DNA of 33,477 nucleotides, from IMG/VR virus record IMGVR_UViG_3300030105_001789, positions 1-33,477 of that record; one strand, given 5' to 3'. The first letter of the stretch is position 1. Each line of letters starts with the position of its first letter. Below are positions 3,627-33,477 of the stretch, piece by piece. Under the pieces are notes generated by a model, which ran no database searches, was not told the origin of the DNA, and saw only the letters and a list, made by a program, of their open reading frames with translations. The position numbers were made by a program, and so were the translations under genes. The DNA is from a virus.

Positions 3627-3695
3627 GTTGTTGTGTCGTTTTAATACACTACAACAAGAGTATAAGAGGCGTTTTAATGCCTTTTATGATTAGTT
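3627..3695 (+). repeat. tandem hairpins closing the plus-strand island; 43 bp shared with 28334-28376
   Basis: Hairpin 1 pairs 3627-3636 with 3646-3655 around the loop CGTTTTAAT. Hairpin 2 pairs 3662-3670 with 3679-3687 around the same loop type and is followed by TTTTAT, so it can act as a terminator. Bases 3653-3695 recur with one mismatch on the minus strand at 28334-28376. The segment ends with TATGATTAGTTG, the leader motif that precedes small genes elsewhere, as if another gene once followed. Confidence 0.75.
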
Positions 3696-7120: not shown

Positions 7121-8833
7121 TTAATTTTTTAAACTTCCTTTGTTAGGTTTGTCAATTTCTGGAATAGCAACATCTGGATTGTTTTTAGGTATTTTAGCAC
7201 CTTGTCTTTTTGCTTCATTTACATTTACAGGAAATGTATTCTGCGTTGCGTTACCTCCTAATGGTTTACCATCAACTCTTTTCTTCTTAAATATTCTACG
7301 TTCCCATCTATGGTAACAATTAACACCGCCACCATATAAGAAGATGTCATATTTACCTCCGCTATGCGCAAACTGTCCGTTAACACCGTTAGCACTCATC
7401 TTTTCAATATCTTCTTTTCTAAATACTTTACCAGATTTAGACAACCTCATCATTCTATTGCAAAAGGTTCTACTTTTACCCTCTGGAGTTTTAGATGTGC
7501 CTAAGTTATAAGCATATCTAATCTTCCAAAGTTTGGTGTCTTGCTCGCTGTTTTGTGTGCTTCCAAGCTCAACCTCATATTGTGACGGTTCTGATAAATC
7601 GTGCTCTACACAATGAAGATTGTAACCTTCTGGTGCATCACTAGCGTATTGCTCTAAATTCATTTCTGCACTCAATTCTGCATCGACTCCTGTTTCTTCT
7701 TCAATAGTTTCTTCATCTACAACGCCATCAACATCTATAAATTCCAAAGGTTTTAAGGTTTTGAAATATAGCTTTAAGCTAATGTCATTAAAAGCTAATA
7801 TTTTATCGAGCCCTCTAATTATTTGGTTTTGAAAAGGTTTAATTATTTGATTGTTAAATAATGCAAAAGCATTTTGTAACTCCTCTGCGTTATTACCTAA
7901 GCCACTATTATCTTTTACACCTATTAATATAGGATTTGTAACCTTATGCGCTCTTAATAGCTTGTCTGTTGCTTCATCTGATAAAAATTGGTATTGTTGA
8001 GAAGCATCATTAAGTTGTAGGTTCTCTATTGTTGCAGCACTATCTTTATTTTTATTAAAAGCAACGATAATTTTACTTCTGCTTTTAGCTCCACCCCATT
8101 TTTTTACAATGTCAGCTTCAATTTGTAGTTGTGTCTTTTTATCTGGCACTCCATTGTTAAAGTTTAAGAATGTAGATGCTGTCATTCCGTTTTGTAAATT
8201 ATTGATATGAAAAGAACTCATCTCGTCTTCCATTTCAGCATATACAACCCCAGATTGATAATCACAAGGTGAAAAGTAAAAGCTACCAGCAGCATAAGGC
8301 TGAATATATAGTATTTCACTTTCTTTACTAGACATTCCAAAAGCTGGAAATCTTGTAGGTTTTATTTTATTGTTTTCAAAGTCAATAGAGTGATAATATG
8401 CTTCTATTTCTCCATCTTCATTTGCTTTTTCTGGTGCTAAATAGTTTACAGGTATGTGAAAAACCTCTACAATCTTGTCGTGTTTGGTATTATATATAAC
8501 TTGTAAGGCAAATTTACCCAGTTTTTTGTAGTCTTTTACAATGTTTTCTATCTCAATCTCCTTAAATAAGCTAATCATTTGAGCATATTGCTCTGGTTTC
8601 TTAGCAGAATCTAAAGCAGATAAGCCTTTACCATAAATTAAATTAGAAATACCATCTATAATACTTGCATTTGTAGGACTTTCGTTATATGCTTCTATTA
8701 AATACTTAAAATAACTGTTATTTTCACCCCACGTTACCCATTGTTTATTGATAGATTCCTCTACAATAGGTTTAATATAGCTCGAAAGCTCGATTACAGA
8801 TATGTTATTTTCTTTTTTTATCGGTTGTTTCAT
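7121..8833 (-). CDS. portal protein with C-terminal extension, 570 aa
   Basis: Residues ~30-370 have portal features: WGENNSYFKYLIEAYNESPT, an SIIDGISNLIYGKGL segment, VFHIPVNYLAPE, the stem region RAHKVTNPILIGVKDNSGLG and FALFNNQIIKPFQNQIIRG. The portal forms the dodecameric DNA entry ring of the head. Residues ~385-570 form a separate domain (TFCNRMMRLSKSGKVFRKED ... YGGGVNCYHRWERRIF) with conserved Cys, His and Trp, possibly a minor-head or MuF-like module fused to the portal. Unusually, it lies well downstream of TerL, after the capsid gene. Confidence 0.8.
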   Translation of the reverse strand: MKQPIKKENNISVIELSSYIKPIVEESINKQWVTWGENNSYFKYLIEAYNESPTNASIIDGISNLIYGKGLSALDSAKKPEQYAQMISLFKEIEIENIVKDYKKLGKFALQVIYNTKHDKIVEVFHIPVNYLAPEKANEDGEIEAYYHSIDFENNKIKPTRFPAFGMSSKESEILYIQPYAAGSFYFSPCDYQSGVVYAEMEDEMSSFHINNLQNGMTASTFLNFNNGVPDKKTQLQIEADIVKKWGGAKSRSKIIVAFNKNKDSAATIENLQLNDASQQYQFLSDEATDKLLRAHKVTNPILIGVKDNSGLGNNAEELQNAFALFNNQIIKPFQNQIIRGLDKILAFNDISLKLYFKTLKPLEFIDVDGVVDEETIEEETGVDAELSAEMNLEQYASDAPEGYNLHCVEHDLSEPSQYEVELGSTQNSEQDTKLWKIRYAYNLGTSKTPEGKSRTFCNRMMRLSKSGKVFRKEDIEKMSANGVNGQFAHSGGKYDIFLYGGGVNCYHRWERRIFKKKRVDGKPLGGNATQNTFPVNVNEAKRQGAKIPKNNPDVAIPEIDKPNKGSLKN

Positions 8834-11763: not shown

Positions 11764-12330
11764 TTATGATAATATTATTTTTTTTATTTGATCCAAAATA
11801 GATTCATCTTTAGATTGCTCTATTGCTTTATCAGCGAAAAACCCCTCTATGCTAAATCCTTTAATCTCTCCGCTCTTAGCTTTCTGATATATTTCTTCAT
11901 TATCTACCTTCATAGATACCATCCAAGTTCCAACAGGTACAGATAAACCGTAGTATGCAGATTTATCTTTTTCCATATCTTCTACTATCCAAGATTCTAC
12001 AACTGTAATTCCTTCTATTTTTGTAGCATGTTCTAAAGTGCTTTCTTTTTGGTGTCCTTTCTTTAAAAATAATTCACTCCCCTTTCTTACTGTTGACTTA
12101 CTAAAGAAGATATGATACTCCTTACCTTCTTTTACTCTAAGAATTGCTTTGTCTGGAATTAATGCAGCACCAAGTAATATTCTTTTCTCTTTATCAACCT
12201 CTACTAACTTAACTTCTTTGCTAAGCATTAAGAAATCAGACTCTATTGCAGGGTTCTCAACTAAAGATATAGCGTTGATACCGCCAAGTTCTTCGTCTTC
12301 ATCTATAAACATTTCAATTATATCGTTCAT
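11764..12330 (-). CDS. XkdF-like prohead serine protease, 188 aa
   Basis: Starts with an acidic NDIIEMFIDEDEELGGINAI and SLVENPAIESDF, as in XkdF-like phage proteins. It has a catalytic-type histidine in ESTLEHA (~96) and a serine in IKGFSIEGFF (~165), separated by VESWIVEDMEKDKSAYYG. Such proteases process scaffold and capsid proteins during head maturation. It is the first gene of the protease-scaffold-capsid set and starts with the shared late leader. Confidence 0.75.
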   Translation of the reverse strand: MNDIIEMFIDEDEELGGINAISLVENPAIESDFLMLSKEVKLVEVDKEKRILLGAALIPDKAILRVKEGKEYHIFFSKSTVRKGSELFLKKGHQKESTLEHATKIEGITVVESWIVEDMEKDKSAYYGLSVPVGTWMVSMKVDNEEIYQKAKSGEIKGFSIEGFFADKAIEQSKDESILDQIKKIILS

Positions 12331-12362: not shown

Positions 12363-12451
12363 TTTTCAGGTTTATTAAAAAAAAAGTTGTATATTGCGGT
12401 ATAATTATTACTTTAATATAAATATTAAAACGTAAACATAGTTAAAAAATA

Positions 12452-12459
12452 TATCTGTG
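12452..12459 (+). promoter_or_regulatory. -7 element of structured RNA 1
   Basis: TATCTGTG matches TAnnTTTG with one mismatch and is followed by CTATAACTATG. The promoter of the paralogous RNA 2 reads TATCTTTG then TATAACTCTTTG, so the element and the bases after it are conserved between the two loci. Confidence 0.55.
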
Positions 12460-12463
12460 CTAT

Positions 12464-12683
12464 AACTATGACACATGGGTAGTTTTATAAACTGTATCAG
12501 CAGTTGTATTTATTGTAGAGCTTGGTTAGAATGTAAAAAAAGTAAGCATGTACCCTTTGGTGTCTGTTAGGCTTACCACCAATTCCATCTGATATATGGG
12601 TAATAGTTTATCGAGCAGAACGAACTGCCTAATTGTTATAATTAAATAGTTTAAACCTCACTATTAATTTAGTGGGGTTTTTT
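12464..12683 (+). ncRNA. structured non-coding RNA 1, about 220 nt, with complementary hairpin loops
   Basis: No ORF of note. A closing stem joins AACTAT (12464-12469) to ATAGTT (12646-12651). P2 pairs GACAC (12470-12474) with GTGTC (12560-12564) and GGGTA (12477-12481) with TACCC (12551-12555). Hairpin A is AACTG-TATCAG-CAGTT (12490-12505). A 3' stem pairs TTAGGC (12567-12572) with GCCTAA (12627-12632) and encloses hairpin B, CCAT-CTGATAT-ATGG (12585-12599). Loop A (12495-12500) is the exact complement of the first six bases of loop B (12589-12594), so a kissing or pseudoknot contact is expected. It ends in an intrinsic terminator. A paralogue with the same loops lies at 19072-19277. Stems were found by eye. 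Known family membership cannot be checked here. Confidence 0.75.
12655..12683 (+). terminator. intrinsic terminator of RNA 1
   Basis: AACCTCACTA pairs with TAGTGGGGTT (one G-U pair) followed by six T. The 34 bases 12650-12683 are identical to the minus strand of 19072-19105, the terminator of RNA 2. It also lies directly after the tape measure gene stop on the opposite strand. Confidence 0.85.
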
Positions 12684-12684
12684 A

Positions 12685-14754
12685 CTACCCAAAACTAGCT
12701 GTACTTTCTTTCTGTCTATCTAAAGATTGTTGTGATGAAATCTCTGTACTTACTACAAATGCTTGTACAGGTTGTTGCGTTTGATTAGCTACACTTGCCG
12801 CTAATTGATTTGTATCACTTGTTCCTACTACATTAAACTGCGGTGCTGCTGCTTGTACTGGTGCTGTAACAGAACTTGCACTTGGAGCTGATACGCCACC
12901 ACCTGCTCCACCTGTTGGATTAGGAGTCGCTAGTATTCCTTTAACTTGTGAAAGCCCAAAAATACCTGTTGCTATTGCCGCTGGTATATTAAAAGGTGCT
13001 GGTATAGATGCTAGTGTTCTAGTAATAGCGTTCTTAGTATTCCATATTGCTTGTGCTACTGCAACAGCTTTACCTACTGCACTCTCCCTACCTACTATCT
13101 CAATAACTGCATTAGCAGATTGGTTCATAACTGCAATCTTAGTATTAGCTAATTTCTTTTCTACTTCAGCTTCTTCTTTAGCCTGATCTTTTACTACCTT
13201 TTCTTTTTTGTCAGCATAGAAATCTCTTATCTTTTGCTTTTGTGCTTCTGTTGCATCTAGCTTTTCTAAATCTCTAATTCTATCAGCTTCTTCTTTCTCT
13301 AATTTTATAATTTCATCTTCTTCTGCAATAACTCCATACTTATCTACAATAGCTTTTACTGATAGTATTCTTTTTTCTTCTGCCGTTGCTGCTTCGATAG
13401 CTTTTTTCTCGTCTATTACTCTTTGTGTTTCAATAGCTTTTAGCTTCGCATCTTCAATAGCTTTTATATCAGATAATTCTTTATTTGTAGCGGTTGTTAT
13501 TTGTGTCTGTAAAAGTCTTTGTATATTTAATTTCTTACTTTCTAACTGTATTGCTTTTGCTGTTAATTTAGCAACCTCATCTTTATCTTTCTTTGTATTT
13601 TTTGTTAAACTATTCTCTAAAATAAGAGCATCTAATCTTATCTTATTAGCAGCAATTTCTTTTCTTGCTATATCTTCTGCAATATTAGATGCTTCTTTTA
13701 ATAAACCAATTCTTTCTGTCGCTGTGTATCTATCTCTTTTTTCCGCTTCAAGTCTTAGCTCGTTTATATCTCTAGTTGCTTTTATTCTTTCAACAATTAA
13801 ATCACGTTCTATTATATCAGCCTTTGCCCTATCGTCTGCAATCTTAGCAGCTATCCTTCCCTCTGCTGTTACCTCGTCTTTTAATCCTTTTACTGATTTA
13901 GTGACTTTATCAATAGTGTCTTTAACTCCCGTTAATGTATCAACGTAAGAACTACCAGCTTTTTTAGCATCTTCTAAAGCTCCACTAAAATCACCGCTAA
14001 ATACTTTCTTAAATGCACTACCTAAGAAACCAATAGTATCTAATATTGCATCAAATCTATTTGTTATGTTTTCTACTATTAAATTCTTAAAATCTAATAA
14101 TGCTTTTTTAGGACTTGTAAACACATCTATAATTGCTTCACCTAAATCTGCAACCAAATCTAAAACGTTATCTACAACAGAACCTATTACAGCCATTATC
14201 TTAGCAAACTTATTCTGTCCTTCCTCCGAGCGTTTAAACGCTTGTACTAAAGCTATAACTCCAATAACTAAAGCACCTATTCCAGATGCTATAATGGCTA
14301 GTCTTAATCTACCAAAACTTTTAGCAGCTCCATTAACACTTAGAGAAAGTCCTTTGAATTTAGTAATAGCACCACCTGTTAATTTATCTAAGGAACTTGT
14401 AACAGAGTTAGCTTCTTTACCTGTGTTTTTTAAAGCACTTGTGCTTTCTTTCTGTACCTTAACTTGTTCTTTTATCTTTTTGTTTGCCTTACCTCTTTCA
14501 TTGTTTAAACCCTTTAAAGATGTTTTCTGATCCTTTAAAGAAATTTTTAACTTTTCTATTTGGCTTCTTAATGCTTTTTGTTGCTGTAAGTTTCCCTTAG
14601 ATGAAGATGCTAATTGATTTTCTAATTTAACAAGTTCCTCCTCAAATTCAATAGTAATATCTTTCTGCTCTTGAATAGTGTCAGATAATTTATCAAATTG
14701 CTTTTGTGCATCCTTTAGATTTACATCAATTTCTATTACTTTCTTAATTGCCAT
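12685..14754 (-). CDS. tail tape measure protein, 689 aa
   Basis: A long coiled-coil N-terminus (VNLKDAQKQFDKLSDTIQEQ ... LRSQIEKLKISLKDQKTSLK) is followed by a hydrophobic segment (LAIIASGIGALVIGVIALVQ, ~153-172). Long charged Lys/Glu/Ala helices fill residues ~285-555. A second hydrophobic stretch (WNTKNAITRTLASIPAPFNI) precedes a Gly/Ser/Ala/Gln-rich end. These are typical of tape measure proteins that set tail length. At ~0.15 nm per residue the tail would be roughly 100 nm. Its start overlaps a 50-residue gene, and the upstream frameshifted chaperone gene probably assists its folding. Confidence 0.9.
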   Translation of the reverse strand: MAIKKVIEIDVNLKDAQKQFDKLSDTIQEQKDITIEFEEELVKLENQLASSSKGNLQQQKALRSQIEKLKISLKDQKTSLKGLNNERGKANKKIKEQVKVQKESTSALKNTGKEANSVTSSLDKLTGGAITKFKGLSLSVNGAAKSFGRLRLAIIASGIGALVIGVIALVQAFKRSEEGQNKFAKIMAVIGSVVDNVLDLVADLGEAIIDVFTSPKKALLDFKNLIVENITNRFDAILDTIGFLGSAFKKVFSGDFSGALEDAKKAGSSYVDTLTGVKDTIDKVTKSVKGLKDEVTAEGRIAAKIADDRAKADIIERDLIVERIKATRDINELRLEAEKRDRYTATERIGLLKEASNIAEDIARKEIAANKIRLDALILENSLTKNTKKDKDEVAKLTAKAIQLESKKLNIQRLLQTQITTATNKELSDIKAIEDAKLKAIETQRVIDEKKAIEAATAEEKRILSVKAIVDKYGVIAEEDEIIKLEKEEADRIRDLEKLDATEAQKQKIRDFYADKKEKVVKDQAKEEAEVEKKLANTKIAVMNQSANAVIEIVGRESAVGKAVAVAQAIWNTKNAITRTLASIPAPFNIPAAIATGIFGLSQVKGILATPNPTGGAGGGVSAPSASSVTAPVQAAAPQFNVVGTSDTNQLAASVANQTQQPVQAFVVSTEISSQQSLDRQKESTASFG

Positions 14755-19065: not shown

Positions 19066-19071
19066 TCACAT

Positions 19072-19105
19072 AAAAAACCCCACTAAATTAATAGTGAGGT
19101 TTAAA
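19072..19105 (-). terminator. intrinsic terminator of RNA 2
   Basis: On the minus strand AACCTCACTA and TAGTGGGGTT form a stem followed by six T. The 34 bases are an exact inverted copy of 12650-12683. It would also insulate the tail genes from upstream transcription. Confidence 0.85.
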
Positions 19106-19277
19106 ACTCTTTGTCCAAATATCAGTTGGAATTTAGCAGCAATACTTAATGCTCCTACTCACTAAACCTCTTGAATAAATCGCAACTGCTGATACAGTCT
19201 AATAACGCACCTTCCTTACGCACACAGGTTTAAGGGTTCTGAGCTTAATGTTATTGTTTATCTTCAAGCAAAGAGTT
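19072..19277 (-). ncRNA. structured non-coding RNA 2, about 205 nt, paralogue of RNA 1
   Basis: On the minus strand AACTCTTTG (19277-19269) pairs perfectly with CAAAGAGTT (19113-19105) as a 9-bp closing stem. CTTGAA (19268-19263) pairs with TTCAAG (19175-19170), extended by TAAA/TTTA. AATAAC (19255-19250) pairs with GTTATT (19206-19201). Hairpin A is GACTG-TATCAG-CAGTT (19199-19184) and hairpin B TCCAA-CTGATAT-TTGGA (19130-19114). The two loops are perfectly complementary over six bases, as in RNA 1. Sixteen bases around hairpin A are identical in both RNAs. It ends in the same terminator as RNA 1. Only peptides with no recognisable features could be encoded. Confidence 0.8.
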
Positions 19278-19280
19278 ATA

Positions 19281-19313
19281 CAAAGATACAACTTTATTTT
19301 GCTAATAAATCAA
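19281..19313 (-). promoter_or_regulatory. promoter of RNA 2
   Basis: Minus strand: TTG (19313-19311), 22 bases, TATCTTTG (19288-19281), an exact -7 element. The surrounding AATAAAGTTGTATCTTTG and TATAACTC match the element at 19525 apart from two changes, so one promoter is probably a duplicate of the other. Confidence 0.75.
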
Positions 19314-19503
19314 GAAAATGTTCAGCACCTTTATTTGCTATAGCTAATCTGTCTTGATAATTAAGGTACTTACCTACTTTATTATTATTTTCTCTATACC
19401 AACGCTCACAATCTATTTGTGCCATTGCTATGTTTGCAGTCCACCCTATTCTGTAAGTTGGATCTTTTAATCCTTCGTTTAATCTTTCAATTACCTCTTT
19501 CAT
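19294..19503 (-). CDS. hypothetical late protein, 69 aa
   Basis: The ATG at 19503 is preferred over an upstream TTG at 19527 because the TTG is the last three bases of the promoter element TATATTTG. The protein starts MKEVIERLNEGLKDPTYRIG and ends QDRLAIANKGAEHFLDLLAK, mostly helical, with one Cys and several Trp/Tyr. It lies between the tail chaperone and RNA 2. Small proteins with the IANKGAEHFL ending seem common in flavobacterial phages; function unknown. Confidence 0.65.
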   Translation of the reverse strand: MKEVIERLNEGLKDPTYRIGWTANIAMAQIDCERWYRENNNKVGKYLNYQDRLAIANKGAEHFLDLLAK

Positions 19504-19524
19504 TGTTTTAGATTTTAAGTTATA

Positions 19525-19532
19525 CAAATATA
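19525..19532 (-). promoter_or_regulatory. promoter element of the 69-residue gene
   Basis: TATATTTG on the minus strand, exact TAnnTTTG, 21 bases before the ATG. The flanks (AATAAAGTTG before, TATAACT after) equal those of the RNA 2 promoter. Confidence 0.65.
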
Positions 19533-20258: not shown

Positions 20259-21527
20259 TTATATTACGTTGTATATTCCTTTGTTTGGATCTAATAAGAA
20301 GTACATCCTCATCATAAGCGCATCACTATAATCTGGTGAACGACTTATCTGTTTCTTTACTTCATCTTTACTTAATAGTGCAATCTTTTGTGTGTCTATC
20401 TCTTTAGGCAATCTAACCCATTCTAATTCTTCTGATAGAAGTAACTCTATATCTTCATTGCAATCTATATATATCTCATTTCTGTTAATCATTTCAGCTA
20501 ATTTATAATAGCATTGTGTCTTTAGATTTGCAAAGTTAACCTTTTCTCCGTTAACATCAATCGCTCTTGAATTATTTACAAAACCTTCACAACCTAAGTA
20601 ATCGACAACACCACCACCAACACCATCTTCATCTACAATAGTTCTGTTGAGGTTTACATTGTATTTAACAATCAATCCTTTTATTATCTCTACACTTTCG
20701 TTAACTCTTGTAACAGGTTCTTCTATGATCTCTATAACTCTTAAACCACTCCATACTTTAACTACTGTTTTATCTCTACCAAGTCGTGCAATATCTGCTG
20801 TGATATAATGCTCACCATCTAATATATGTGTGTTACTAAATAGCTTTATAATACTTTCGTTGTTTATAAGCTGACCTTTGTCTTCACTTGCTTCCGCTTC
20901 GTATAGCTCTTTAAATATCTTAGGAGGTAAATCTTTTTGCGCTTGTAGTACTTCTTCTTCAGATAGTATTCCTTCAGCAACAGCATCCCAACATGTAATC
21001 TTAAAGTATTCATATTGTGGATCTTTTTTAGACTTCTCTTTTAACTTATGTACCCAATTAGATATGCCCCCAAAGTTACCTATAATTTTACAAGGTGCTT
21101 CTGTTGCAGATAATGTAGAACGTAAAGCATACCAGCTTTCTGGTCTTGCTCTTGGCGCTTCATCAAATACACACGCATAAACATCTTCACCATATAAGTT
21201 GTCTGGCTTCTCTGCTGTCTTAAAATGTATCTCTGCACCATTAGGGCACACGATATATAAACCGCTTTCATTGAACTTATATAACTTAGTCTTTGCTAAG
21301 TTTCTTCTAAGTCTTTTAAACGCAATCTTAGCTTGTGAATACACAGGAGCAACCCACCAATAGTTATGATTGTAGGCATCTTCTAATTCGTGAGCCTTGG
21401 CATATAGCCAAGTAATATGAGAATATGTTTTACCACTTTTTGTACTCGCTTCTGTAATTGTAAAACGAGCATCAGAAAACAGTATCTTCTTTTGGTAAGA
21501 AGTAAGAGGTGGTTTTATTATTTCCAT
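20259..21527 (-). CDS. terL: terminase large subunit, 422 aa
   Basis: ATPase: Walker A-like ASTKSGKT (27-34) and Walker B YACVFDEAP (117-125, D122 E123). Nuclease: YITADIARLGRD (D245), TIVDEDGVGG (D299, D301) and SPDYSDALMMR (D399, D402), the three acidic clusters of the RNase H-like domain. It pumps DNA into the prohead and cuts it. The start overlaps the small subunit gene by 10 bases. Length is normal, with no sign of an intein or intron. Confidence 0.95.
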   Translation of the reverse strand: MEIIKPPLTSYQKKILFSDARFTITEASTKSGKTYSHITWLYAKAHELEDAYNHNYWWVAPVYSQAKIAFKRLRRNLAKTKLYKFNESGLYIVCPNGAEIHFKTAEKPDNLYGEDVYACVFDEAPRARPESWYALRSTLSATEAPCKIIGNFGGISNWVHKLKEKSKKDPQYEYFKITCWDAVAEGILSEEEVLQAQKDLPPKIFKELYEAEASEDKGQLINNESIIKLFSNTHILDGEHYITADIARLGRDKTVVKVWSGLRVIEIIEEPVTRVNESVEIIKGLIVKYNVNLNRTIVDEDGVGGGVVDYLGCEGFVNNSRAIDVNGEKVNFANLKTQCYYKLAEMINRNEIYIDCNEDIELLLSEELEWVRLPKEIDTQKIALLSKDEVKKQISRSPDYSDALMMRMYFLLDPNKGIYNVI

Positions 21528-28333: not shown

Positions 28334-28376
28334 AACTAATTATAAAAGGCATTAAAACGCCTCTTATACTCTTGTT
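28334..28376 (-). repeat. hairpin repeat, inverted copy of 3653-3695
   Basis: On the minus strand the 43 bases match 3653-3695 with a single G/A difference. The hairpin ATAAGAGGC / GCCTTTTAT with loop GTTTTAAT and trailing T's can act as a terminator after the 114-residue gene. Its presence at the ends of small-gene islands on opposite strands suggests that cassettes were moved or duplicated. Confidence 0.85.
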
Positions 28377-28721
28377 CTAAACAATTGCCTTGCAGTAGTT
28401 CCATTTAATAACTTTTTCGCCATCTTCAAAGGTTTTACTTCCACTAAAAGAACGCCAGTTATCAGCATAGTAAACTACTTCATGCCATTCAGATTTACCT
28501 AAATCATTAATGTGTTCTATTTTTGCTAACACTGGCTCTAATTCATCAGGCAACAGTGTAGAACACTGCGTATAATTAATAGCTTTTTCTCGCTCTTTTA
28601 CAAAGGTTACTATTTCTTCAATCAATTCTTTATAGTCGGTTGCCATATATTTACACCCGTTACTTGCTAATATTTTTACTATTTCGTTATCCATCATTTT
28701 GTATTTATTTTGGTTTGTCAT
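28377..28721 (-). CDS. hypothetical protein, 114 aa
   Basis: Contains EIVKILASNGCKYMATDYKE, LLPDELEPVLAKIEHINDLG and EWHEVVYYADNWRSFSGSKT, with two more cysteines. By comparison with the other leaders the start may be at Met9 or Met10 (28697/28694), since ATGACAAACC lies within the leader. The leader includes GAGTATGATTAGTAGCG (28745-28729). Function unknown. Confidence 0.6.
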   Translation of the reverse strand: MTNQNKYKMMDNEIVKILASNGCKYMATDYKELIEEIVTFVKEREKAINYTQCSTLLPDELEPVLAKIEHINDLGKSEWHEVVYYADNWRSFSGSKTFEDGEKVIKWNYCKAIV

Positions 28722-29710: not shown

Positions 29711-32056
29711 TTAAAATGGTACTTCATCTTTTTCTGCTACTTCACCATCGCTTATCATAAACCATCTATCTCCATTACTATTTCCTTGTGTAAATTCAAT
29801 AGCTTTATAGTTAGCATACTTATGTAACCAGATATTAAAACGCTTACGTGTTAGCCATTTCTTATAATCTGTATATTCATCTGTAAATTTAATGAAGTAA
29901 TCAACTTTGTTAAGTCGAACATTTAAACTTACTATCTCTCTATCTTCTACCCATTCCATAAATTCCATAGAAGATTCTGCTATAAACTTTCTTAGTTTAA
30001 TATTCTTAGCATTTTGTTTTATCAATCCATTTTTAAAGAACATCTGTAAACAATACATCATATAGTTATCATACTTTTGGTATTCTAACAAATCCCAATC
30101 ATCAAATAGCTGTCTTCCAAATTCCTCCTCTGGTGTTAGTTTATCACCATAGTATTGAGCTATTTCTATTTCGTGTCTTCTACGATCATGACTGTTTCCT
30201 TCTCCTTTTACAGCGTAGTTTGTGCTTAGTAAAATCTTAGGTGAATCGTGTACGTTTAATTTTATAGCATCTTTGTTTTTTCTTTCTAATGTTATTCCTT
30301 CAGTTACTAAACTAAATTGGCTTTCAAAATCCCAATTCTTTTTTATATCATCAAAAACTAATATCTTTGTGTCTATACTAATTGTTTGATTTGCAAACTG
30401 TGATTTACTATCGTATTGTTTACCATCAATTATAGATGTCTTTCTAATATTTGCCAAGCCTTGCACAAATAAACCTTTACCTGTTCCACCCTCTGGATTG
30501 TCGCTTATAACCTCATCATTTAATATAATAGCTTTGTTATTACTTCTGTTCTTGTAGGTACTCATCATATAACCTAATACACATTCTACTGCTAATGGTT
30601 CTTCATTAGATACATTATGTATAAACTTAGAGTAATCATTATCAAATGTATCTAAGGTTTGCCAATCACGATCTAATATGTGAGACTTCCATACATAACC
30701 ATCAACATCTACATACTCTTTTAATTGTATGCTATTCTTTTTTACTTCTAATATACCATTAGAAAAAGCAAAGTAAGAAGTATCTCTAGTATCGCTTAGC
30801 ATTAATAAATCAATACTTTCTAACATTGTAAGGTATTGCTCACTAAATAGGTTTTGGTAAATAGCACAATAGTTCCATACATCTAATTGTTTCTTATCCA
30901 TTAGGTAATCTAAAACAAAATCTTTAATCTTAGATATAGATGTTAATTCTACCTTGTTAGATTCTATATATACAAATGAGGGTTTGTCTGCATCATTAGG
31001 AAAGTGTTTTTTAAATCCATTGTTCTGCAGAAACATTTTATATTTCAAAGGATTAATAGTGATCTTTTGTTTATCGCTTACATTCCAAAAGTCCTCTGTT
31101 TCAGATTCTATTTTTATCTCGTTGTAGGTATCTTCATTAATCTTATACTTATCTAATACTTTCTGCTTTCCTTTGTTTAGATCAACCTTTATATTATTAA
31201 TACGTGTGTAGTCTTCAAAGTATTTAGAATTAAAACTCCTTATTTTAAATGCAGATTTAATAGCGTTTCTTGTTTCTGTTTCCGAGAACTTACCAAACAC
31301 AATGTTGTTTAATATGTGTGCTTCTGTTGTCGATTGGCTAACTCCATATTCACAAAACGCTCCAGCTAAGTTAAAGATAAAGTTGTTTCTTTCACCATCT
31401 ACAAAATCTGTAACCCATTTAAACTTCATAATTTTAGAGATGATAGTCATCTCATCATTAATAGGTATTAAAGGCACTCTGTCTGTTACTTTAAACCCCT
31501 CATCGATTAGTGTAGGTTGGTATATTTCAGCATCGTAGTTTATGTATATATTTGGATCGTAAGACTCGAAGCAAATTCTATCCACGTTACAGTTGGCAAT
31601 ATCGAAGTTGTCGTATTCAAACTCCTTATTAAATTGTCTGAAGTATTTATCATGTGTAAACTTATCAGAATCTTCTGGTATTCTTACCAATGCTTTTAAA
31701 CCAATGTTGGAAGGAGAAATAAATATAGCTACTATATGTTTATTTTTTTTAAGCTGTTGGAACTGCTCCATCATAATATCCTTAGATTTATATTTGTCAA
31801 AGTCTGTTATCATTAAGCCAGAGTGTTTTACAAGTCCGTTCTTATTACGTTCTTTAAACTCCCCTCCAAAACATATACAAGGTAAGTTACCTTTTTGCTT
31901 TTGATAGTCTTCTTTCTTTAAAGTTCTAAGATGTTCTATAAATTCCTTTGATGGATTACCTGTTTTTATTCTTTCTAATGCTTTCTCTAAAGAAATGTAG
32001 TAAGGTATCTGTGTTTCCTTTAATCTCTTAAAGATTGTTATTTTGTTGTTTTTCAT
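29711..32056 (-). CDS. bifunctional primase-helicase (BT4734-type N-terminus, SF3 helicase), 781 aa
   Basis: N-terminal ~45-180: CFGGEFKERNKNGLVKHSG, LMITDFDKY (D85, D87), IFISPSNIGLKALVRIP and VDRICFESYDPN, the pattern of BT4734/VirE N-terminal domains associated with archaeo-eukaryotic primase folds. C-terminal: Walker A EGGTGKG (522-528), Walker B ILVFDD (565-570) and sensor STNY (611-614) of superfamily 3 helicases. It is the main replisome protein: priming and unwinding. The extreme C-terminus is EVAEKDEVPF, an SSB-tail-like peptide similar to the phage's own SSB-like protein. Its start overlaps the preceding gene by 29 bases. Confidence 0.9.
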   Translation of the reverse strand: MKNNKITIFKRLKETQIPYYISLEKALERIKTGNPSKEFIEHLRTLKKEDYQKQKGNLPCICFGGEFKERNKNGLVKHSGLMITDFDKYKSKDIMMEQFQQLKKNKHIVAIFISPSNIGLKALVRIPEDSDKFTHDKYFRQFNKEFEYDNFDIANCNVDRICFESYDPNIYINYDAEIYQPTLIDEGFKVTDRVPLIPINDEMTIISKIMKFKWVTDFVDGERNNFIFNLAGAFCEYGVSQSTTEAHILNNIVFGKFSETETRNAIKSAFKIRSFNSKYFEDYTRINNIKVDLNKGKQKVLDKYKINEDTYNEIKIESETEDFWNVSDKQKITINPLKYKMFLQNNGFKKHFPNDADKPSFVYIESNKVELTSISKIKDFVLDYLMDKKQLDVWNYCAIYQNLFSEQYLTMLESIDLLMLSDTRDTSYFAFSNGILEVKKNSIQLKEYVDVDGYVWKSHILDRDWQTLDTFDNDYSKFIHNVSNEEPLAVECVLGYMMSTYKNRSNNKAIILNDEVISDNPEGGTGKGLFVQGLANIRKTSIIDGKQYDSKSQFANQTISIDTKILVFDDIKKNWDFESQFSLVTEGITLERKNKDAIKLNVHDSPKILLSTNYAVKGEGNSHDRRRHEIEIAQYYGDKLTPEEEFGRQLFDDWDLLEYQKYDNYMMYCLQMFFKNGLIKQNAKNIKLRKFIAESSMEFMEWVEDREIVSLNVRLNKVDYFIKFTDEYTDYKKWLTRKRFNIWLHKYANYKAIEFTQGNSNGDRWFMISDGEVAEKDEVPF

Positions 32057-32572: not shown

Positions 32573-32668
32573 TTACAACAATATTGTTATTATTATCAAT
32601 ATTAAAACCTCTGCGATAAATATACCAAATACAACACAAAACATTTCTTTAAACTCTTTATCGAACAT
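32573..32668 (-). CDS. 31-residue single-pass membrane peptide, paralogue of the one at 1622-1720
   Basis: Begins MFDKEFKEMF and continues as one hydrophobic helix with a single Glu (FIAEVLILIIITILL). Against the paralogue, DK, FKEMF and F-I-x-E-V-L are conserved while flanking residues differ; 17 of the residues align identically. It lies between the candidate origin and the primase operon. Too short for routine gene finders. Confidence 0.7.
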   Translation of the reverse strand: MFDKEFKEMFCVVFGIFIAEVLILIIITILL

Positions 32669-32745
32669 TATATTTTATAATCTTTTATAAATTTGTTAAT
32701 GTAGATTGTAAAGATATAAAATATAAATCAAATACACAAGTTTAT

Positions 32746-32943
32746 TTCAATGTGTATCTAAATACTGTTAAAGTGTATCTTTTTTAATCCAATGTGTACT
32801 GTATTATTCGTAACGTTTATAGTACTTACAGCGGGGTTTTGCCCTCAAAGTACACATTGAACTCCAATCTAGGGGGACACCCCCTAAAATATATTTATTT
32901 TCTGTGAGGGGTATATAGAGAAAACGCTTCAATGTGTACTTTG
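32746..32943. other. putative replication origin with iterons
   Basis: Five copies of an AATGTGTA-type repeat: 32746-32759, 32768-32780 (AAAGTGTATCT), 32789-32800, the inverted CAAAGTACACATTGAA at 32846-32861 and TTCAATGTGTACTTTG at 32928-32943, the last two being exact 16-base inverted copies. Between them lie a perfect hairpin TAGGGGG-ACA-CCCCCTA (32870-32886) and GTACTT...AAGTAC (32822-32852) enclosing GGGG/CCC. The flanks are very AT-rich. Iterons, a GC hairpin and proximity to SSB, primase-helicase and a DnaA-like gene support an origin. An operator array is the alternative. Confidence 0.6.
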
Positions 32944-32948
32944 CATAA

Positions 32949-32976
32949 AAAAACCAGCCTATTTAGACTGGTTTTT
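32949..32976. terminator. bidirectional terminator
   Basis: AAAAACCAG (32949-32957) pairs with CTGGTTTTT (32968-32976), with an inner CTA/TAG pair. Both strands end in T runs, so it may stop transcription from either side. It overlaps the stop of the 48-residue gene and isolates the iteron region. Confidence 0.8.
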
Positions 32977-33330: not shown

Positions 33331-33477
33331 TTAAAATGGCACGTCTGTTTCATCTACATCAGTAGTAACGGTTTCAGCAACTACTTCTACATCTTTTACA
33401 TCAGAACCTTTTTTATAGTTGTTAATGTATTCCTGTAACACCTTAGCTTGTTCTGTTGCTTTAGCATCCATTTTAGC
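33331..33477 (-). CDS. single-stranded DNA-binding-like protein, 3' part
   Basis: Second part of the gene cut by the contig ends. Bases 33379-33477 duplicate 1-99; the unique part codes for AETVTTDVDETDVPF and the TAA at 33331. The acidic tail with terminal Pro-Phe is the basis of the SSB-like assignment. Confidence 0.6.
   Translation of the reverse strand, partial: AKMDAKATEQAKVLQEYINNYKKGSDVKDVEVVAETVTTDVDETDVPF
33379..33477. repeat. terminal direct repeat, right copy
   Basis: Identical to 1-99; see the left copy. The circular unit is 33,378 bp. Confidence 0.95.

Follow-up and report, generated by a model that had tools for sequence, protein, structure and literature searches.

Two intergenic segments of a phage genome, one on each strand, share a short block of sequence and a terminator, which raises the question of what they encode. 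A sequence-only reading had taken them for two members of one undescribed structured RNA family. The stretch of DNA analyzed, hereafter the window, is a phage record of 33,477 bp with a 99-bp terminal direct repeat (positions 1–99 and 33379–33477), so the genome is probably complete and was assembled in circular form. It carries genes for the portal (7121–8833), a head protease of the Peptidase_S78_2 type (11764–12330), the tape measure protein (12685–14754), the large terminase (20259–21527), and a BT4734-like primase (29711–32056). This gene content, together with the promoter motif TAnnTTTG known from Bacteroidota, suggests that the host of the phage belongs to Bacteroidota.

The 16-base block noticed in both segments, ACTGTATCAGCAGTTG, was found exactly twice in the window, at 12491–12506 on the plus strand and at 19183–19198 on the minus strand. 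An exact scan of viral contigs for this 16-mer yielded at least 118 stretches, some of which were chance matches in coding DNA, while about 40 had a much longer common layout: P1, MUUGAAG, AUAAAC, P2 arm, AACUG UAUCAG CAGUU, GUUUAU, UGUAGAK, P4 arm, CCA..CUGA..UGG, and P1'. Members whose A loops differ were recovered by further scans with other parts of this layout. A total of 41 sequences served to build a covariance model, R1, and 100 members, some of them near-duplicates from related contigs, were aligned (alignments A3 and A4). They came from viral contigs and from the Cellulophaga phages phi4:1, phi17:2, and phi14:2, and were about 150–340 nt long. Since recruitment relied on patterns of the conserved parts, the conservation of those parts is biased upwards, while the pairing changes are not so biased.

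The covariance-model search that had been suggested for the two copies was performed with this model of homologues, which finds both copies in the window and further members in viral contigs. Copy 2 (19102–19281, minus strand) scored 112.7 bits (E 8e-23) and copy 1 (12400–12610, plus strand) 65.5 bits (E 1e-12), the training set of 41 sequences having included the former and excluded the latter; the third-best match in the window reached only 18 bits. Copy 1 had been placed at 12464–12683, but when cut at 12464 it scored 35.0 bits, and the full-element match from 12400 moves its start about 60 nt upstream. Its 5' end and closing stem had also been misread. According to the R1 alignment, the closing stem P1 is formed by ATAATTATTAC (12401–12411) and GTAATAGTTTAT (12600–12611), while P3 is formed by ATAAAT (12418–12423), compensatory to the family ATAAAC/GTTTAT, and ATTTAT (12508–12513). 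In 4% of shuffles, chance alone yields a helix of the length of this P1, so the boundary of copy 1 is set by the whole-model score and not by the helix. The other parts of copy 1, all on the plus strand, are the variable P2 arm (12424–12489), hairpin A (12490–12505) with the kissing loop TATCAG at 12495–12500, the variable P4 arm (12521–12584, limits approximate), and hairpin B (12585–12599), whose loop CTGATA at 12589–12594 is the kissing partner.

In copy 2, on the minus strand, P1 consists of AACTCTTTG (19269–19277) and CAAAGAGTT (19105–19113), and P3 of ATAAAC (19256–19261) and ATTTAT (19175–19180). They are accompanied by the variable P2 arm (AATAAC.../...GTTATT, 19201–19255), hairpin A (19184–19199; loop TATCAG at 19189–19194), the variable P4 arm (19131–19167, limits approximate), and hairpin B (19114–19130; loop CTGATA at 19120–19125). 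The location and strand given earlier for copy 2 were right, but its limits, 19072–19277, had to be corrected to 19102–19281 plus the terminator to 19072. Hairpin B is present in each copy, as had been claimed, and so is the common terminator, a 35-nt sequence that is 100% identical in inverted copies at 12650–12684 (plus strand) and 19071–19105 (minus strand; stem 19075–19102). On the contrary, the heptamer TATAACT, thought to be a shared promoter-proximal element, is not homologous: it belongs to the 5' strand of P1 in copy 2 and to the interior of the P2 arm in copy 1. A promoter-like element does lie upstream of each copy. The putative −7 element of copy 2, TATCTTTG (19281–19288, minus strand), has the TAnnTTTG motif, and its likely counterpart in copy 1, TATATTGC (12390–12397, plus strand), differs from this motif by one mismatch; both compare with TATATTTG of locus L003. 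A pairwise MAFFT alignment of the two copies misaligned their cores and was dropped. A supposed third copy at 1658–1690, 82% complementary, was read as a chance overlap with a small coding frame.

In the predicted fold, P1 closes a four-way junction that is locked by kissing between the loops of hairpins A and B. P1 joins both ends of the RNA and encloses P3, which bears the P2 arm and hairpin A, as well as P4 and hairpin B. The helices are connected by the conserved linkers MUUGAAG and UGUAGAK, and the core is nearly invariant. Single-sequence folding gave a z of about −2, which is too weak as proof; homology and covariation were decisive for the reality of the structure beyond chance. In a MAFFT alignment of the 41 sequences, two-sided changes occurred at 23 of 34 pairs (12.0 with shuffling, sd 1.7), and 87.6% of cells paired versus 40%–51% with the partners slid. 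For 77 members, two-sided changes were found at 28 of 34 pairs, versus 17.5 after shuffling (sd 1.7), and 91.6% of cells paired versus 38%–53%, in an alignment that was fitted to the model and thus leans towards it; this was the outcome of the covariation check proposed in the sequence-only reading. Every pair of P1, P4, and hairpin B had two-sided changes, and all helices contained such changes together with G-U pairs, the P2 stem being the least regular (62% of cells paired). We regard the existence of the RNA family and its architecture as close to certain. As a separate observation, in most members column 14 of alignment A2 (A or C after P1) tracks columns 304–305, where hairpin B has its outer pair (C-G or U-A); this association might reflect a tertiary contact.

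The A and B loops were left unpaired in the covariance model, and the A loops were read from the alignment. At least four contiguous Watson-Crick pairs can be drawn between a member's own loops in 83% of the distinct loop pairs, compared with 25% of crossed pairs and 14% with shuffled B loops. In the two central column pairs, C-G (60) gives way to U-A (11), and U-A (60) gives way to C-G (10). Seven matched loop codes were seen across the family: UCAG/CUGA (extended to six pairs, UAUCAG/CUGAUA, in each copy of the window), CUAG/CUAG, UUAG/CUAA (L130), UAUC/GAUA (L134), UUCUAG/CUAGAA (L265), UUUCAG/CUGAAA, and CUAAG/CUUAG, which L353, L358, and L359 have in the second of their tandem RNAs. This seventh code was predicted from the B loop CUUAG and afterwards found in hairpin A. 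This covariation would be compatible with a contact inside one molecule or between molecules. In the tandem loci (L353:7290–7682, L358:314–721, and L359:2491–2898), two RNAs with the codes CUAG/CUAG and CUAAG/CUUAG are 5 nt apart.

The lower score of copy 1 (65.5 versus 112.7 bits, with only copy 2 in the training set), its weakened linker between P1 and P3, and a P1 helix that taken by itself could be due to chance would fit a decaying paralogue, leaving copy 2 as the sole functional one. We consider such decay unlikely, given that P3 of copy 1 is compensatory, its hairpins A and B retain the six-pair kissing code, and both the promoter-like element and the terminator have been kept.

A search of Rfam 15 with the window and the loci of 20 members, types 1, 2, and 3 among them, gave no match of the RNA at the gathering score, in line with the earlier expectation. 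At permissive E-values (up to 10), mir-84, SpF11, and other candidates were far below their gathering scores and unconvincing. Neither Rfam nor ARAGORN recognized the RNA itself as a tmRNA or tRNA, their matches being solely at neighboring genes, and the Rfam covariance models of GOLLD and 6S RNA (each at gathering or permissive thresholds) and of ROOL did not match the family. No prior description was found in the literature searched, in which subscription journals and bioRxiv were thinly covered. Searches of both copies against phages with blastn returned mostly chance hits, in addition to the Cellulophaga phages, and a 42-nt core query retrieved no record of a gut crAss-like phage and nothing convincing among plasmids. 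Nonlabens P12024S, Tenacibaculum PTm1, and Polaribacter P12002L gave weak hits, which were rejected because the R1 model did not support them. With about 100 homologues aligned, strong covariation, and no Rfam 15 match, the proposal that both segments belong to a single undescribed RNA family of phages held. The family is new and without known relatives, while GOLLD and ROOL are precedents for its kind, structured RNAs that phages carry near tRNAs.

Four relatives of the window phage (L313, L314, L315, and L317), with terminases 70%–76% identical and the same gene order, had no R1 match in their whole records. These records may be incomplete, but the local gaps at both RNA sites are covered. 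Within the limits of tblastn matches, the gap at the copy-1 site is 58 nt in L314 and 104 nt in L317 versus 354 nt in the window, and at the copy-2 site 81–128 nt in the relatives versus 576 nt in the window. The latter stretch also contains, beside copy 2, a 77-aa ORF (19294–19527, minus strand) that is missing from the relatives and has no protein family match. The lack of both copies in the relatives indicates that the RNA gene is accessory. A whole-record search of 73 carrier records revealed a single copy in about 68 and two copies in five; the window has two. Although double or tandem copies exist (G012, G030, G448, G451, and G856), most carriers have one, so the idea that the RNAs are kept as a pair does not hold in general.

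The carrier records range from about 33 to 306 kb and represent unrelated tailed phages. A terminase related to that of the crAss-like phage phi14:2 was present in 28 of 57 records tested, in at least 23 of them at E below 1e-20; many carriers are thus crAss-like and many are not. Among isolates, the RNA was confirmed by R1 in the Cellulophaga phages phi4:1, phi17:2, and phi14:2 (Crassvirales), whose GenBank records annotate short hypothetical proteins over it. Two sets of cellular genomes, 397 from the Lutibacter family and 395 from Bacteroidota, contained one positive each, both owing to the same Lutibacter MAG contig, and a scan of GTDB contigs gave one hit; these genome searches used strict filters and could have missed weak members.

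A tRNA gene is near 11 of 77 members, about twice the expectation of 5.2, and 10 of the 77 adjoin tRNA genes at a distance of no more than about 10 nt, invariably in the same orientation; with only 11 such members, a link with translation is not general. In L009 (L009:980–1359), a tmRNA gene is located 87 nt upstream of the RNA on the same strand, and in L249 (L249:2660–3047), a tmRNA is within the same tRNA cluster as the RNA. At L167:9333–9996, RNAs of type 3 and type 1 lie about 270 nt apart, with a tRNA-like 3' end before each. The TAnnTTTG motif was found upstream of 9 of 73 members (background 2.9%), including copy 2 of the window. These contexts show a predicted RNA gene inserted either with its own promoter-like element and terminator, as in the window, or inside a presumed tRNA transcript.

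Many members begin just after the stop codon of an upstream gene with no obvious promoter, and in phi4:1, phi17:2, and phi14:2 (L201, L202, and L203, with similar P2 arms) an OmpA-domain gene directly precedes the RNA. Both features could be expected of a cis-acting leader, riboswitch, attenuator, or 3' UTR governing a neighbor gene. However, no conserved neighbor gene was found across 60 loci, other members reside inside tRNA arrays, copy 1 is oriented opposite to its flanking genes, and a terminator ends both copies, which makes regulation in cis very unlikely. The promoter-like element and terminator, the tRNA-array sites, the orientation of copy 1, and the lack of a conserved neighbor point to an independent unit. 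Both segments are probably genes for a discrete, trans-acting accessory ("moron") RNA of Bacteroidota phages, about 150–250 nt in size.

The P2 arms (25–173 nt) and P4 arms (32–146 nt) are hypervariable, and their own folding signal is weak (mean z −0.9 and −0.6). When arms of different members were compared, 11 pairs were discordant and one concordant: where one arm was near-identical, the other was usually unrelated. For example, L068 combines the P2 arm of L064 with the P4 arm of L048. One P2 arm was found in RNAs of both type 1 (L112 and L158) and type 3 (L124), and similar P2 arms occur in phi14:2 (crAss-like) and phi4:1 (Lightbulbvirus), two phages that infect one species and are not related to each other; among the members compared, no P2 arm was seen in the P4 position. 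The comparison shows that the arms are exchanged independently between phages. Recombining arms and few copies per genome would also suit a DNA-level element, such as a recombination cassette or a packaging or replication site, whose inverted repeats only resemble RNA. This reading is hardly credible in view of the two-sided changes and G-U pairs in all helices, and close relatives without the element must package and replicate as well.

As for the putative role of the RNA, host take-over or counter-defense is the most likely. The RNA would be transcribed or cut out with P1 forming its ends, and in tRNA arrays tRNA processing may release it in this form. It would fold into a compact platform, the constant core of which may dock to one conserved host partner, perhaps in the translation or tRNA machinery, since phage tRNAs and tmRNA accompany the RNA. 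The variable arms could then act as target- or host-specific elements through which the RNA aids host take-over or counters defense. A division into a constant docking core and specificity arms is a tentative possibility. One form of counter-defense considered was an anti-CRISPR RNA mimicking a host CRISPR repeat.

The strongest rival is RNA-only oligomerization, in which intermolecular A-B kissing would produce homo-oligomers, like smaller GOLLD or ROOL multimers, that would either display the variable arms or enclose them. Both GOLLD and ROOL are RNAs carried by phages near tRNA islands with a variable linker and kissing-loop assembly (PMC12286853). The A-B loops of the new family covary, and the codes of the tandem RNAs in L353, L358, and L359 differ, as expected if cross-pairing must be avoided. 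Nevertheless, other double carriers, including the window, have the same code in both copies, the A-B contact is also possible within one molecule, and GOLLD and ROOL are both far larger than this RNA, so oligomerization appears unlikely. A broader version, in which a self-assembling RNA class with several codes and interchangeable arms serves as a modular scaffold for counter-defense or take-over, is rather doubtful; such a class would be widespread and common in environmental crAss-like phages.

The comparison of the RNA with GOLLD and ROOL made in the sequence-only reading stood as to lifestyle (phage-borne, near tRNA islands, with kissing loops) but not as to size or homology. GOLLD, whose function is likewise unknown, also combines a conserved and a variable part, and one of the kissing loops by which GOLLD and ROOL assemble was first inferred from covariation as a tertiary contact (PMC12286853). 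Ribosomes are reported to bind GOLLD in pull-down assays (PMC12286853), and by analogy the tRNA and tmRNA company of the new RNA suggests translation. ROOL, an RNA found in phages and prophages close to tRNA islands, has a variable linker and a kissing loop as well (PMC12286853). On the other hand, many GOLLD RNAs exceed 800 nt, and the GOLLD cage comprises 14 chains, whereas the new RNA is about 200 nt (members about 150–340 nt) and folds differently. ROOL is much larger and multi-pseudoknotted, and the conserved kissing loop it has in common with the new RNA is set in an unrelated fold.

The ends of 6S RNA and tmRNA pair into a closing stem, as do those of the new RNA, and tmRNA genes adjoin some of its members; however, they differ from it in the architecture of junction and kissing loop. 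The stable RNAs C and D of phage T4 (species 1 and 2), small RNAs of unknown function made within the phage tRNA cluster, offer an analogy from a different host group. To our knowledge, phages have only a small number of recognized families of structured non-coding RNA, most of them with no known function. The family described here has a compact, well-supported secondary structure with a covarying loop-loop contact and is encoded by a movable accessory gene with exchangeable arms. As cultured Cellulophaga phages carry it, the role of phage accessory RNAs becomes directly testable, and the covariance model enables annotators to catch a gene that is now missed, being annotated in these phages only as short hypothetical proteins.

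Several other repeats were observed in the window. A 46-nt inverted repeat at 3650–3695 and 28334–28379, 96% complementary, contains a hairpin and a T-run on opposite strands and was read as a second twice-used terminator cassette, comparable to the 35-nt terminator of both RNAs. An 88-nt direct repeat at 1641–1728 and 32589–32676, 80% identical, reads as the start of a small membrane-protein frame. The non-coding region 32750–32960 contains several CAATGTGTAC-like repeats in both orientations, which resemble iterons and may represent a replication origin.
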